From a virus, in IMG/VR virus record IMGVR_UViG_3300049997_000003, positions 1 to 22,815 of that record: a DNA stretch of 22,815 nucleotides, one strand, 5' to 3'. The position numbers and the translations under genes are program-made. Below the pieces are notes generated by a model. That model made no database searches, was not told the DNA's origin, and saw only the letters and a list, made by a program, of their open reading frames with translations. Shown one piece after another: positions 2,938 through 9,123 of the stretch. Every line of letters begins with the position of its first letter. Within the stretch, counting starts at the first letter, position 1.

Positions 2938-3351
2938 ATGCCAGTTTATGAACCTGCAACGATTGTTGAATATAGCGAGGGTGAAGACCCTAAGCAAGCG
3001 GTGTTCGACAAAATTCTACCGCTCATTGATGGTTTACGCCTGTTCCGCAATGAGGTGCTTCTTGTGACGGCGCCCAATAAGGTGAAGAGCGCGGGCGGCA
3101 TTATCCTGCCGGAGAAATACAAAAGCGAGCAGCGCTTCCAAGGCAAGGTTGGCCTTGTGGTCGCCATGGGAGAGCTTGCGTTCAACGACGATAAGCTGTG
3201 GCCCAATCCTGAGACGCGCCCTGTGGTTGGCTCTTGGGTGTTTTTCCGCACGGCTGATACCAGCGAGTGCGCCATTGGCGGTTACTCCTGCCGGTTCATC
3301 GACGACGACAAGGTGCGCGGCTCTGCCCTGGCACCAGATAGCCTCCGGTGA
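2938..3351 (+). CDS. GroES-like co-chaperonin
   Basis: This protein should cap a chaperonin ring, probably host GroEL, and help fold phage structural proteins, as T4 gp31 does. The Cpn10 pattern is visible: a first strand RLFRNEVLLV (about residues 34-43), a mobile-loop element SAGGIILPEK (51-60), then FQGKVGLVVAMGE (67-79), a VVGSWVFF strand (about 95-102), and a C-terminal strand near YSCRFIDDDKV. At 137 residues it is longer than typical bacterial GroES (about 97), with an N-terminal extension of about 30 residues and a longer insert before VVGSW. A strong ribosome-binding site, AAGGAAGG, precedes the ATG. The stop overlaps the start of the scaffold gene (TGATG), so the two are likely translationally coupled, and the neighbourhood points to capsid folding as its task. 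Confidence 0.82.
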   Translation: MPVYEPATIVEYSEGEDPKQAVFDKILPLIDGLRLFRNEVLLVTAPNKVKSAGGIILPEKYKSEQRFQGKVGLVVAMGELAFNDDKLWPNPETRPVVGSWVFFRTADTSECAIGGYSCRFIDDDKVRGSALAPDSLR

Positions 3352-5885: not shown

Positions 5886-6797
5886 ATGGCTATTTCGGTC
5901 CACGCAATTAAGAACCAACTTCTTCCCGGCCTGATGGCGGTTGAAGGCAAATACAAAGAAGTCGATCCAGAGTGGAAAGACATTTTTACGACTAAGCAGT
6001 CCAAGATGCAGATTGAAAAAGTTCTGCACACGCGGCTGATGGGTATGGCAGCACTTAAGAAAGAAGGCGCTGCTTCTTATCTTGACCAGGGCGCGGGCGA
6101 CCGTTGGGTGGTGAACATGGAGACGGTGGAAGCCTCCCTGATGTACGCCATGACCCGCAAGGCCATCGCTGACGGATTGTACCGGACTGAGTTCACCCCT
6201 ACTAATCTGGGGCTGAACAACTCCATGCGCCAGTTCTGGAATACATATGCCGCCAATATCTTCAACACGGCGGGCACGTATGACACGAACACGGGCGGTG
6301 ACGGTCAGGCGCTGCTGTCAACGGCACATCCGATTGATACGGGCACCTACGCCAACACGTCCACCACGCCTCTTTCGCTCAATGAAACCTCGCTGTTGGG
6401 TGCCTATGAAAGCATCTTCACGGGGTTCTACGACGAGGCCGGCCTGCGTATCGACGTGGAAGCGGATAAGATCGTGGTGCCGAAGCATTTGGAGCCGGTG
6501 GCAATGCGCCTCCAGAACGCCGTCCTGCGTCCTGGCACCGCCAACAATGACCCTAACGTCATCAGCAAAGTTCTTGCTGCGGCAGACGGCATCAAGGTGC
6601 TGCGCTACCTCACCAGTAAGTACGCATGGTTCCTGACAACGACGATCAAGGGTTTGGTGCATCTTCAGCGCGAGCCTTACGAGACCTCCATGTGGGTGGA
6701 TGAAGCAACCGACAATCTCATGGTGAAGAACTATGAGCGTGCTGGGTTCTTCTGCACGAACCCTAGGGCTGTGTTCGGTCAGCTCGCAACCGCTTGA
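5886..6797 (+). CDS. Major capsid protein
   Basis: This is the shell-forming coat protein, expected to have the HK97 fold. It is 303 residues. The arrangement of an N-terminal helix region (QLLPGLMAVEGKYKEV), a middle LSTAHP element, a P-domain-like stretch VEADKIVVPKHLEPVAMRLQ (about residues 191-210), and a C-terminal segment with NLMVKNYERAGFFCTNPRAVFG resembles the Mu gpT-type head-subunit group. No long N-terminal delta domain is obvious, in keeping with a separate scaffold gene. It has the strongest canonical ribosome-binding site in the area, AGGAGG at 5871-5876, nine bases before the ATG, as expected for the most abundant virion protein. Its stop codon lies inside a perfect 14-bp palindrome. 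Confidence 0.87.
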   Translation: MAISVHAIKNQLLPGLMAVEGKYKEVDPEWKDIFTTKQSKMQIEKVLHTRLMGMAALKKEGAASYLDQGAGDRWVVNMETVEASLMYAMTRKAIADGLYRTEFTPTNLGLNNSMRQFWNTYAANIFNTAGTYDTNTGGDGQALLSTAHPIDTGTYANTSTTPLSLNETSLLGAYESIFTGFYDEAGLRIDVEADKIVVPKHLEPVAMRLQNAVLRPGTANNDPNVISKVLAAADGIKVLRYLTSKYAWFLTTTIKGLVHLQREPYETSMWVDEATDNLMVKNYERAGFFCTNPRAVFGQLATA

Positions 6798-6827
6798 GTA
6801 TACTCAAAGTATAGGAGACTTATACTC
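6794..6827 (+). promoter_or_regulatory. Palindrome and alternative hairpins around the ribosome-binding site after the capsid gene
   Basis: TTGAGTATACTCAA (6794-6807) is a perfect 14-bp palindrome containing the capsid stop codon. A second inverted repeat, AGTATA (6808-6813) with TATACT (6821-6826), encloses a 7-base loop holding GGAGA of the ribosome-binding site for the next gene. GAGTATA (6796-6802) can also pair with TATACTC (6821-6827). The structures are mutually exclusive, so they could set translation of the downstream beta-helix gene relative to capsid, or bind a dimeric protein as DNA. Function is inference. Confidence 0.5.
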
Positions 6828-8126
6828 GTGACGTTAACCTCGTTTCCTAACGGAATTATCGGGTTCCCTATCATTGGGGCAGTTGGTAATTTTCCGATTA
6901 TCAATCCGGGAGGAAACGTTTGGTTCGTTTCCTCCCTTCTCGGCAATGACGGCAATGACGGCTCTTATGGGACGCCATTTGCCACGTTGTCCGCTGCGGC
7001 TTCCAACTCCAGCCTTATGGCTGGAGACAACATCGTGCTGTTGGAAGGTCATACTGAGACCGTTACAGCGGCTGCTGGAATTGCCCTATCCATGGCGGGT
7101 GTGAGCGTGATCGGCAGTGGTTCTGGCACCTACGCACCAACCATTACCTTCACCACGTCTACGGCAGCAACGTTCCTGATCTCAGGAGCAGGTGTCTCCG
7201 TCCAGGGTTTGCGCTTTGTCAATGGCATTGCCTCTCAGGTGACGATGCTAGACGTCCAGGCGAAGAGTGTGCTGATTCTCGGCAACACTTTTGTGGAAGG
7301 TGCAGCGACAACCGGTTTGTCGTTCATTAACACGGTGAATGCTTCGACTGCAAATATGTCGGATGGCCTTCAGATCATCGGCAACACGTTCCATGCGCCT
7401 ACGGCTGGTAACTACAATCACGCGATTGGCCTGACTACGGTACATGACAACGTCGAGATCGGCGGCAACGTCATCTATGGCAATTTTGCTCTGTCTGGTA
7501 TCCACAACATCACTGGCATGGTGCTGACCAACCTTAAGATTCATGACAATACCGTCACAAATCTGACGGCGGCCAAGCCTGCGTTGAATCTCATCTCGGC
7601 ATGTACGGGCTGGGCGGCGAATAATAAGTTGATGGGTGGCGATGCTACCGTCAACAGCATGCTGTTCAATACTGCGCTCAAGGTGTTGCCCGGAAACTCC
7701 GGTCAGCACGGGAGTATGGATGCAACATCAGAATACTGGTTAGTCAAAAAAGGTGTCGTATCCAACACAATCACAACGGGGGGTGTGGCCATTTCGACGG
7801 CATCTGTTGGAGGTGAGTTGGCAGTAGTGTCAACAATCATGAAGACGAATTCCGTTGGACTTTCTGGCATCACTGGAAATGTCCAGTTGCAGTCGAACAA
7901 TACGAATGGTGCTGCTGTGTTCTGGTCTACACCGATTGCAACCCTTGGAGCTAGTGCAACTGTATGCATTGGTGTGGGGGCATCGGCGACACCGCTCACC
8001 GTCATCGAACTAGGAAAAGTCATCAGCATCAGTTCGTCTGCAACCAACGGTACTAATGCTGGTACGGTCGATGTCTATGTTCGATTTCGTCGCATAACAA
8101 ACGGCGCCAACATTACGTCGGCGTAA
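6828..8126 (+). CDS. Beta-helix structural protein 1 (head fibre or spike-like)
   Basis: This 432-residue protein is very rich in Thr, Ser, Asn, Gly and Val and looks like a right-handed parallel beta-helix. It opens with a short NFPNG-type leader (TLTSFPNGIIGF), then VSSLLGNDGNDGSYGTPFATL, GDNIVLLEGHTETVTAAAG, and repeated strand/turn units such as GVSVIGSGSGTYAPTITF. A C-terminal region from about residue 300 (SEYWLVKKG onward) forms a separate beta domain absent from its neighbour. The start is GTG 6828, with AGGAGA at 6813-6818 nine bases upstream. It is clearly paralogous to the next gene. A capsid fibre, decoration or receptor-binding role is possible; position next to the capsid gene favours a virion protein, but I cannot tell which. 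Confidence 0.72.
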   Translation: MTLTSFPNGIIGFPIIGAVGNFPIINPGGNVWFVSSLLGNDGNDGSYGTPFATLSAAASNSSLMAGDNIVLLEGHTETVTAAAGIALSMAGVSVIGSGSGTYAPTITFTTSTAATFLISGAGVSVQGLRFVNGIASQVTMLDVQAKSVLILGNTFVEGAATTGLSFINTVNASTANMSDGLQIIGNTFHAPTAGNYNHAIGLTTVHDNVEIGGNVIYGNFALSGIHNITGMVLTNLKIHDNTVTNLTAAKPALNLISACTGWAANNKLMGGDATVNSMLFNTALKVLPGNSGQHGSMDATSEYWLVKKGVVSNTITTGGVAISTASVGGELAVVSTIMKTNSVGLSGITGNVQLQSNNTNGAAVFWSTPIATLGASATVCIGVGASATPLTVIELGKVISISSSATNGTNAGTVDVYVRFRRITNGANITSA

Positions 8127-8167: not shown

Positions 8168-8200
8168 CATCATCTATATAGGTGGTGATGCAACAGGAGG
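8168..8200 (+). promoter_or_regulatory. Hairpin followed by a perfect AGGAGG ribosome-binding site
   Basis: CATCATC (8168-8174) pairs with GGTGATG (8184-8190), with one G-U pair and a 9-base loop. The 3' arm covers the upstream GTG, GTG and ATG candidates (8182-8190). A perfect AGGAGG (8195-8200) follows, five bases before an ATT at 8206. This is the pattern expected if translation begins at ATT 8206 rather than at the upstream codons, because AGGAGG lies downstream of those and cannot serve them. Confidence 0.5.
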
Positions 8201-9123
8201 CTAAAATTACTCTCACGAACTTCCCAAACGGGATTTCCAGCTTTGGTATCCCGTCAATCGGAAATGGCATCCCCACAGGGGGCGGAAGCTATTTTTTCGT
8301 TGATTCCACTAGTGGTGGCGATGGCAATGATGGCAGTTGGGAATCCCCACTTGCCACTATTGATTATGCTGTAGGTTTGTGTACTGCCAGTAAAGGCGAC
8401 GTAATCGTTGTCAAACCTGGGCACATTGAGACGGTGGTTGCGGCTGGCGGTGTAACGCTCGACGTTGCTGGTGTTACCATTGTCGGCCTCGGCACAGGGT
8501 CTCTTCGCCCTACTGTAAACTATACGACGGCGGTCGCGGCCAGCTTTCTGGTGTCGGCAGCAAACTGTTCGGTTGAAAATCTGCTCTTCACCGGTGGCAT
8601 TGATGCGCTTACAAACCCCATCCATGTACAGGCGGCGGATTTTTCACTGCTGAATTGCGAGTGGCGCGATGTGACAGGTCAAGCGACCGATGTCATTCTC
8701 ACCACTGCTGCTGCTAACCGCATGGCCATTCGCAACCTGCGGTATGACGGTGCAACTGCGGCAGGCACGAACGCTGGCATTGCTATCGTTGGTGGCGACC
8801 GTATCGTCATCGATGGGTTGTCCATGGATGGAAATTTCGCCGTTGGCGGCATTGACATTCGTACTACCGCGACAACCGATCTTGAGGTTCGCAACGTTAT
8901 GTTCCGCACGCGTAATGCGGCGGACATCTTCCTAGTTGACACCATTACGGCGTCCACTGGTTTGATTGGTCCGAACCTCTATCTGCGCTTGCAGGATAAC
9001 GCAGCCAACATCACCGAAGCATGCACCGGCGCAACATTCGTTTACTTCCAGCCGATTTCTATCGTCAATCTGGCTGGTGAGTCTTCGATGTTCACTAACA
9101 TTACCGCTTCCACTGATGCTTAA
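8188..9123 (+). CDS. Beta-helix structural protein 2, paralogue of the preceding gene
   Basis: This is a second right-handed beta-helix protein of about 306-311 residues, collinear with the N-terminal two-thirds of the preceding product. Shared landmarks are the leader TLTNFPNGISSFG, FFVDSTSGGDGNDGSWESPL, GDVIVVKPGHIETVVAAGG, GVTIVGLGTGSLRPTVNY and AASFLVSAANCSVENLLF. It lacks the C-terminal domain of its neighbour. The start is uncertain. ATG 8188 is given conservatively, with GTG 8182 also in frame; but alignment to the neighbour (VTLTSFPNG versus ITLTNFPNG) and a perfect AGGAGG at 8195-8200 favour ATT 8206. This N-terminal leader and helix type are familiar from phage virion proteins. A fibre, spike or decoration role is inferred. 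Confidence 0.7.
   Translation: MQQEAKITLTNFPNGISSFGIPSIGNGIPTGGGSYFFVDSTSGGDGNDGSWESPLATIDYAVGLCTASKGDVIVVKPGHIETVVAAGGVTLDVAGVTIVGLGTGSLRPTVNYTTAVAASFLVSAANCSVENLLFTGGIDALTNPIHVQAADFSLLNCEWRDVTGQATDVILTTAAANRMAIRNLRYDGATAAGTNAGIAIVGGDRIVIDGLSMDGNFAVGGIDIRTTATTDLEVRNVMFRTRNAADIFLVDTITASTGLIGPNLYLRLQDNAANITEACTGATFVYFQPISIVNLAGESSMFTNITASTDA

Follow-up and report, generated by a model that had tools for sequence, protein, structure and literature searches.

Background

Genes that initiate at AUU are already known, and the gene described here, the second of two related beta-helix genes in a phage structural gene block (copy 2), is a further case of them, with a membership that we regard as provisional. 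In Escherichia coli, infC starts at AUU, and its output is probably reduced through discrimination by IF3, a situation to which copy 2 would be comparable (PMC5472188). However, infC regulates its own factor via IF3 autoregulation, whereas nothing in copy 2 suggests autoregulation; an infC-type autoregulation of copy 2 was rejected as an analogy, the encoded protein being a beta-helix and not a translation factor. The translationally-limited pcnB of E. coli likewise has AUU as a low-output start, as proposed for copy 2, but is a host gene. In S. aureus, cvfC1 (AUU) and ccpN (AUA) display an extended Shine-Dalgarno and attain about 10% of the AUG output, with ccpN reaching up to 30% in rich medium (PMC13009471, excerpted text). 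Copy 2 would share with them the pairing of a near-cognate start with a strong Shine-Dalgarno; yet these are cellular genes whose non-canonical starts are conserved and backed by ribosome profiling and reporters, whereas the ATT of copy 2 is not conserved in its near relatives and is a predicted start.

On an evolutionary scale, the switch from AUG to AUU is very rare, being recorded for one of 61,358 ancestral starts, which weighs against such a switch in copy 2. Stronger Shine-Dalgarno motifs accompany GUG and UUG starts across prokaryotes; that study left out genes with AUU because there were too few of them, and its test for joint switches did not reach significance (PMC5622118). Among phages, the genome announcement of the Salmonella phage f18SE states in its accessible text that ten coding sequences begin with AUU (PMC4599075). 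AUU starts are thus claimed there as in the present case, but that claim is, in the text seen, an annotation statement without homology or protein evidence, whereas ours is based on a comparison of homologues. In the open-access literature, within the portions available and with subscription papers mostly outside its scope, we found no demonstrated AUU start in a phage structural gene.

Gene context and the start region of copy 2

The window, i.e. the whole stretch of DNA that was analyzed, corresponds to a 22,815-base virus record and contains a phage structural gene block; our search recovered no DNA similarity between it and phage records. The block comprises, in order, a portal gene (phrog_1216), a gene for a GroES-like protein, the major capsid protein gene (phrog_371) and the two related beta-helix genes (Table 1). 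The GroES-like co-chaperonin gene thus lies within the head gene block, at 2938-3351 (phrog_3188, E=1.3e-10). The arms AGTATA and TATACT form an inverted repeat (6808-6826) whose loop coincides with the Shine-Dalgarno of copy 1, which is separated from the GTG by a 10-base spacer. Among 199 loci with a family frame the window alone holds two such frames, a count that is rough as flanks were limited and some contigs are present twice.

Table 1. Positions of the features discussed, numbered from the first base of the window.
Feature	Position	Strand	Basis
Gene for the major capsid protein, directly preceding copy 1	5886..6797	+	match to phrog_371 (major head protein), E=3.9e-8; capsid annotation in several hits
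AGGAG, Shine-Dalgarno of copy 1	6813..6817	+	10 nt before GTG; -7.3 kcal/mol
Beta-helix copy 1, GTG start	6828..8126	+	35% identical to copy 2 in alignment A1
Possible hairpin over AGGTG/ATG 8188	8168..8190	+	competing registers
AGGTG, resembling a Shine-Dalgarno but weaker, before ATG 8188	8180..8184	+	AGGUG/CACCU -5.1 kcal/mol; predicted mostly paired
ATG, rival start (6-residue extension MQQEAK)	8188..8190	+	in frame
AGGAGG, predicted Shine-Dalgarno of the ATT start	8195..8200	+	5-nt spacer CTAAA 8201-8205; duplex -10.3 kcal/mol
Proposed ATT start of copy 2	8206..8208	+	aligned with the codon at which homologues have their ATG; ATT recurs in L061
Copy 2 (beta-helix) as read from the ATT: 305 codons and a stop	8206..9123	+	intact frame; 74% identical to L003
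Codons 1-21, conserved N-terminal tag (ITLTNFPNGISSFGIPSIGNG)	8206..8268	+	conserved in A1; predicted disordered, pLDDT under 50 at residues 1-21

The open frame of copy 2 spans 8182 to 9123, and its 5' end reads GTG GTG ATG CAA CAG GAG GCT AAA ATT ACT CTC ACG AAC TTC. Reading and translating the sequence bore out every coordinate of the initial annotation (AGGAGG 8195-8200, ATT 8206, GTG 8182, GTG 8185, ATG 8188), along with its statement that the paralog reads VTLTSFPNG from GTG 6828. GTG 8182-8184, GTG 8185-8187, ATG 8188-8190 and ATT 8206-8208 share a single frame, giving VVMQQEAK-ITLTNFPNG; unlike in the contig L061 considered below, in-frame AUG and GUG codons are present upstream of the ATT, but all three of these conventional starts precede the AGGAGG, which is followed at a proper spacing by the ATT. 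By itself the hexamer is unremarkable, as the window has five copies on both strands versus 8.5 expected in shuffles; what is remarkable is its placement, because it lies 5 nt before the codon where the homologs start.

Start sites across the family

A homology search of virus contigs recovered 58 related loci with 43-74% identity, which, together with alignment A1, place copy 2 by its body in a capsid-locus beta-helix family with an N-terminal MxLTNFPNG tag. In most of the motif-keeping relatives an ATG coincides with the ATT codon or is displaced from it by a single codon in either direction, such that the ATT occupies the start position indicated by the homologs. The ATG is found at the exact codon in the near relatives L003/L004 (74%), L023 (70% in A1), L007 (69%) and L006 (67% in A1). 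The DNA of L023 (TAA CAG GAG GCA GAC ATG vs CAA CAG GAG GCT AAA ATT in the window) has an in-frame TAA 12 nt upstream that closes the frame, which makes it the clearest case. The initial annotation had left it to homologs to tell whether conservation begins at the ATT or further upstream: among the listed motif-keeping relatives it starts at the ATT codon, and residues like VMQQEAK occur in none of the ORFs.

To place these starts in a wider set, 200 HMM hits were pooled, of which 36 without the motif, with other N-termini, and 51 sequence duplicates were dropped. The resulting 113 non-duplicate motif-bearing sites, two of them the window's own, were enriched by scans demanding N-T-N or A-T-H at the start, and their proportions are not population frequencies. 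In 107 of them an ATG either coincides with the ATT codon (94 sites) or follows it by one codon (11 sites) or two (2 sites); the others comprise two GTG sites, one being copy 1 of the window, two ATT sites, namely the window and the contig L061, and two with ATC and an ATG four codons upstream. When the set was confined to hits from homology alone (123 hits, 36 without the motif, 63 unique), L061 (listed there as L185) was the only one of the 63 sites without a conventional start nearby. Among the matches listed for the N-T-N scan, 118 besides L061 comprised 111 ATG, five ATC followed by ATG, one GTG and one unrelated GTT. Based on these comparisons, the start site of copy 2 is the ancestral one, which now reads ATT.

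Two aspects of the relatives count against an AUU start. The closest motif-bearing ones have ATG, such that ATT is not kept among close relatives and recurs only in the distant L061; and L005, which is equally near in the body (74% over residues 33-311), lacks the motif and begins with another N-terminal sequence. The same one-base distance from the family state, a G-to-T change, would also be expected if the ATT were a sequencing or assembly error for a true ATG. The window is a single metagenome contig, and an exact-pattern search, whose coverage may not extend to very near records, found no sister contig with any ATN at the site that could confirm it. Against such an error, which we consider improbable, stand the otherwise intact frame of copy 2 and the following observations on L061.

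A second ATT at the start position in a divergent phage

When virus contigs were scanned for an AGGAG followed within 3-10 bases by ATT and the motif, a single one matched, L061. Its ATT occupies the equivalent codon, is preceded by AAGGAGGT and lies in the sequence AAGGAGGTATATT ATT TCA CTA ACT AAT TTT CCA AAT GGA. Here there is no in-frame ATG, GTG or TTG upstream: the frame opens eight codons before the ATT start, the last of those eight codons being ATT as well. The L061 protein is 37% identical to that of copy 2 and, as the near relatives of each have ATG (in the case of L061 the sister L186, 85% identical), the simplest reading would be that the two ATT codons arose by separate changes. 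A GGAG precedes an internal ATG of L061, which counts against initiation at its ATT. Over the 16 codons from the ATT to the first internal ATG, the comparison with L186 gives 8.75 synonymous and 3.25 nonsynonymous differences (pS 0.74, pN 0.09); this mostly synonymous change shows constraint at the protein level in that segment, some of which may predate the ATT. The minus strand of L061 has at 1159-1707, between a capsid-like gene and the ATT gene, a frame with what we take to be an HNH-like pattern.

Further ATT starts of the family were found neither by a scan for GGAG with ATA, ATC or ATT nor by one with the SFG motif that made no demand for a Shine-Dalgarno. The former gave 11 matches, of which nine were ATC ATG (start ATG), one was L061 and one was L182, a chance match that we rejected since its frame closes after 26 codons. 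The latter gave 15, comprising 11 ATC ATG, one ATT ATG (L277), L061, and two (L278, L279) in which ATC is preceded by an ATG at a distance of four codons. In bacterial and archaeal genomes the ATT pattern had 11 matches, none recognizable as family when translated.

The ATT start proposed in the initial annotation is thus supported in part, namely in that its codon is where the family starts and in that a second, divergent ATT exists in L061. A sequencing error would have had to strike an unrelated contig at the same codon, to favor AGGAGG at both sites, which errors would not choose, and to leave no ATA or ATC starts in the same scans. L061 also bears on the reading that copy 2 lost its start recently and is falling silent while copy 1 supplies the function. 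A second copy is indeed available, in the one locus among the 199 that holds two; but copy 2 is intact and is the copy closer to the family, with 74% identity to L003, copy 1 being only 35% identical to copy 2, and L061 is in the same ATT state with one known copy of the family gene. We therefore hold silencing to be very improbable.

Shine-Dalgarno strength and the upstream ATG

The Shine-Dalgarno of copy 2 is unusually strong for the family. Among the 62 conventional homology-only sites, GGAG occurs at 3-11 nt in 41 and AGGAGG at 3-8 nt in two. At this latter distance the hexamer is found in each of the two ATT sites (Fisher's test, p=0.003, or 0.007 when the comparison is confined to sites with GGAG). 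A duplex energy at least as strong as that of the window's ATT is seen in 8% of these 62 sites, and one at least as strong as that of L061 in 2%. By a slightly different criterion, seven of 108 conventional sites in the pooled set have AGGAGG. Across the virus collection, and with duplicates still included, 49 matches of the AGGAGG class have ATG, while a single one besides the window has ATT; the ATG frames of this class that are not cut by a locus end encode 134 to 485 aa. The link of ATT with a strong Shine-Dalgarno is suggestive, as it rests on two cases; it agrees with the extended Shine-Dalgarno of the S. aureus AUU and AUA starts (PMC13009471) and with the stronger motifs at prokaryotic GUG and UUG starts (PMC5622118).

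An AUG at 8188, in frame six codons upstream, counts against the AUU. On that reading, which we regard as unlikely, the old start was lost and translation proceeds from AUG 8188 via AGGTG 8180-8184, adding MQQEAK before the tag and leaving AGGAGG as a leftover read as Gln-Glu-Ala. This AUG is conventional, and AGGTG, which is absent from the initial annotation, could act as its Shine-Dalgarno with five pairs, its aligned spacing from the AUG being equal to that of AGGAGG from ATT. Its pairing is nevertheless weaker by 3.5 kcal/mol (-5.1 for AGGUG/CACCU vs -8.6 for AGGAGG/CCUCCU). A free duplex search over the 20 bases upstream of ATG 8188 gives -7.1 kcal/mol, about the family median, and a longer rRNA tail gives -9.2 kcal/mol in a register that touches the AUG; the usable register amounts to -3.0 to -5.1 kcal/mol. 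Extended N-termini do occur: L278 (near 4275) and L279 (near 2646) have the 4-residue extensions MPLN and MALN followed by Ile at the usual start position, suggesting that an extension is tolerated somewhere in the family. However, their Shine-Dalgarno lies before the upstream ATG, whereas in the window the strong one lies after ATG 8188. Moreover, upstream in-frame starts occur within eight codons at nine of 109 conventional sites, four of them with ATG, such that the presence of ATG 8188 needs no function and may be accidental. Initiation at AUG 8188 would also leave L061 unexplained, there being no conventional upstream in-frame start in that contig.

The initial annotation had further placed the upstream candidates in the 3' arm of a hairpin (8168-8174 with 8184-8190). 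These arms do pair by sequence, with seven pairs including one G-U, but the best predicted fold of 8168-8190 uses a shifted register (8168-8175/8180-8187) that hides AGGTG and leaves ATG 8188 free; overall, AGGTG is buried to a greater extent than the ATG in the predicted folds. Two of the three longer folding windows have T8189 and G8190 mostly in pairs, together with GAGG 8197-8200, which belongs to the Shine-Dalgarno proposed for the ATT. ATT 8206 is predicted to be 0.94 unpaired (95th percentile of the 109 conventional sites) and ATG 8188 0.60 (39th), while the ATT of L061, at 0.11 (1st percentile), is predicted to be poorly accessible; the latter and the pairing of GAGG count against the AUU. 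As the longer folds pair both the bases of ATG 8188 and the Shine-Dalgarno of the ATT, the structural argument is weak either way, and predicted folding decides nothing between the starts.

The beta-helix protein and its N-terminal tag

An AlphaFold model of copy 2, built with 23 sequences, shows a right-handed beta-helix with a mean pLDDT of 82. The nearest viral model is A0A1B1IT72 (TM 0.79); matches to known beta-helix proteins in the PDB are weak (TM 0.33-0.51 for the five with E under 0.001), and searches of Pfam and PHROGs gave no confident family for either beta-helix protein of the window. In the window the order is capsid, copy 1, copy 2, and in MW202647.1, the one phage record matched, a homolog follows the major capsid gene, such that adjacency to the capsid gene was seen in these two sequences. 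We infer that the copy 2 protein may be a capsid decoration or fiber docked by its N-terminal tag. MxLTNFPNG also heads proteins of 134 to 485 aa (L123, L292, L294 and others), some of which fall outside the family profile, with 51 pattern matches outside the HMM; the motif behaves as if it were a portable docking tag.

Proposed initiation and its implications

In light of the above, we propose translation from AUU 8206 as the best reading for copy 2 and a reasonably probable one, with this codon best read as a working but weakened start. An ancestral AUG at 8206 would have become AUU by a single G-to-T change, and the AGGAGG five bases upstream would sustain initiation there. The initiator tRNA would pair near-cognately with the AUU, the protein would accordingly begin with Met, and the conserved tag would be left at its normal position. 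Both the use of AUU 8206 by ribosomes and the resulting reduced rate of synthesis of the copy 2 protein are what we would infer from this arrangement. It is plausible that the AUU thereby lowers the number of copy 2 proteins relative to the paralog.

The tandem copies of the window start with GUG (copy 1) and AUU (copy 2). That neither has AUG in the sole two-copy locus, against AUG in 107 of 113 family sites, raises the idea, which we put forward as a doubtful one, that weak starts with compensating Shine-Dalgarno motifs set the ratio of the paralogs on the virion and that the AUU copy responds to the level of host IF3. Non-AUG starts in both copies fit a tuning of dosage after duplication, although this is one case, noticed after the fact.

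If initiation does occur at the AUU, gene finders restricted to ATG, GTG and TTG would give copy 2 a wrong N-terminus and would cut the conserved tag off the L061 protein. Use of the AUU would further mean that a phage structural gene has taken up a near-cognate start in two separate lineages, each with the expected compensating Shine-Dalgarno, and would provide an easy reporter system for how far a strong Shine-Dalgarno rescues a weak start.
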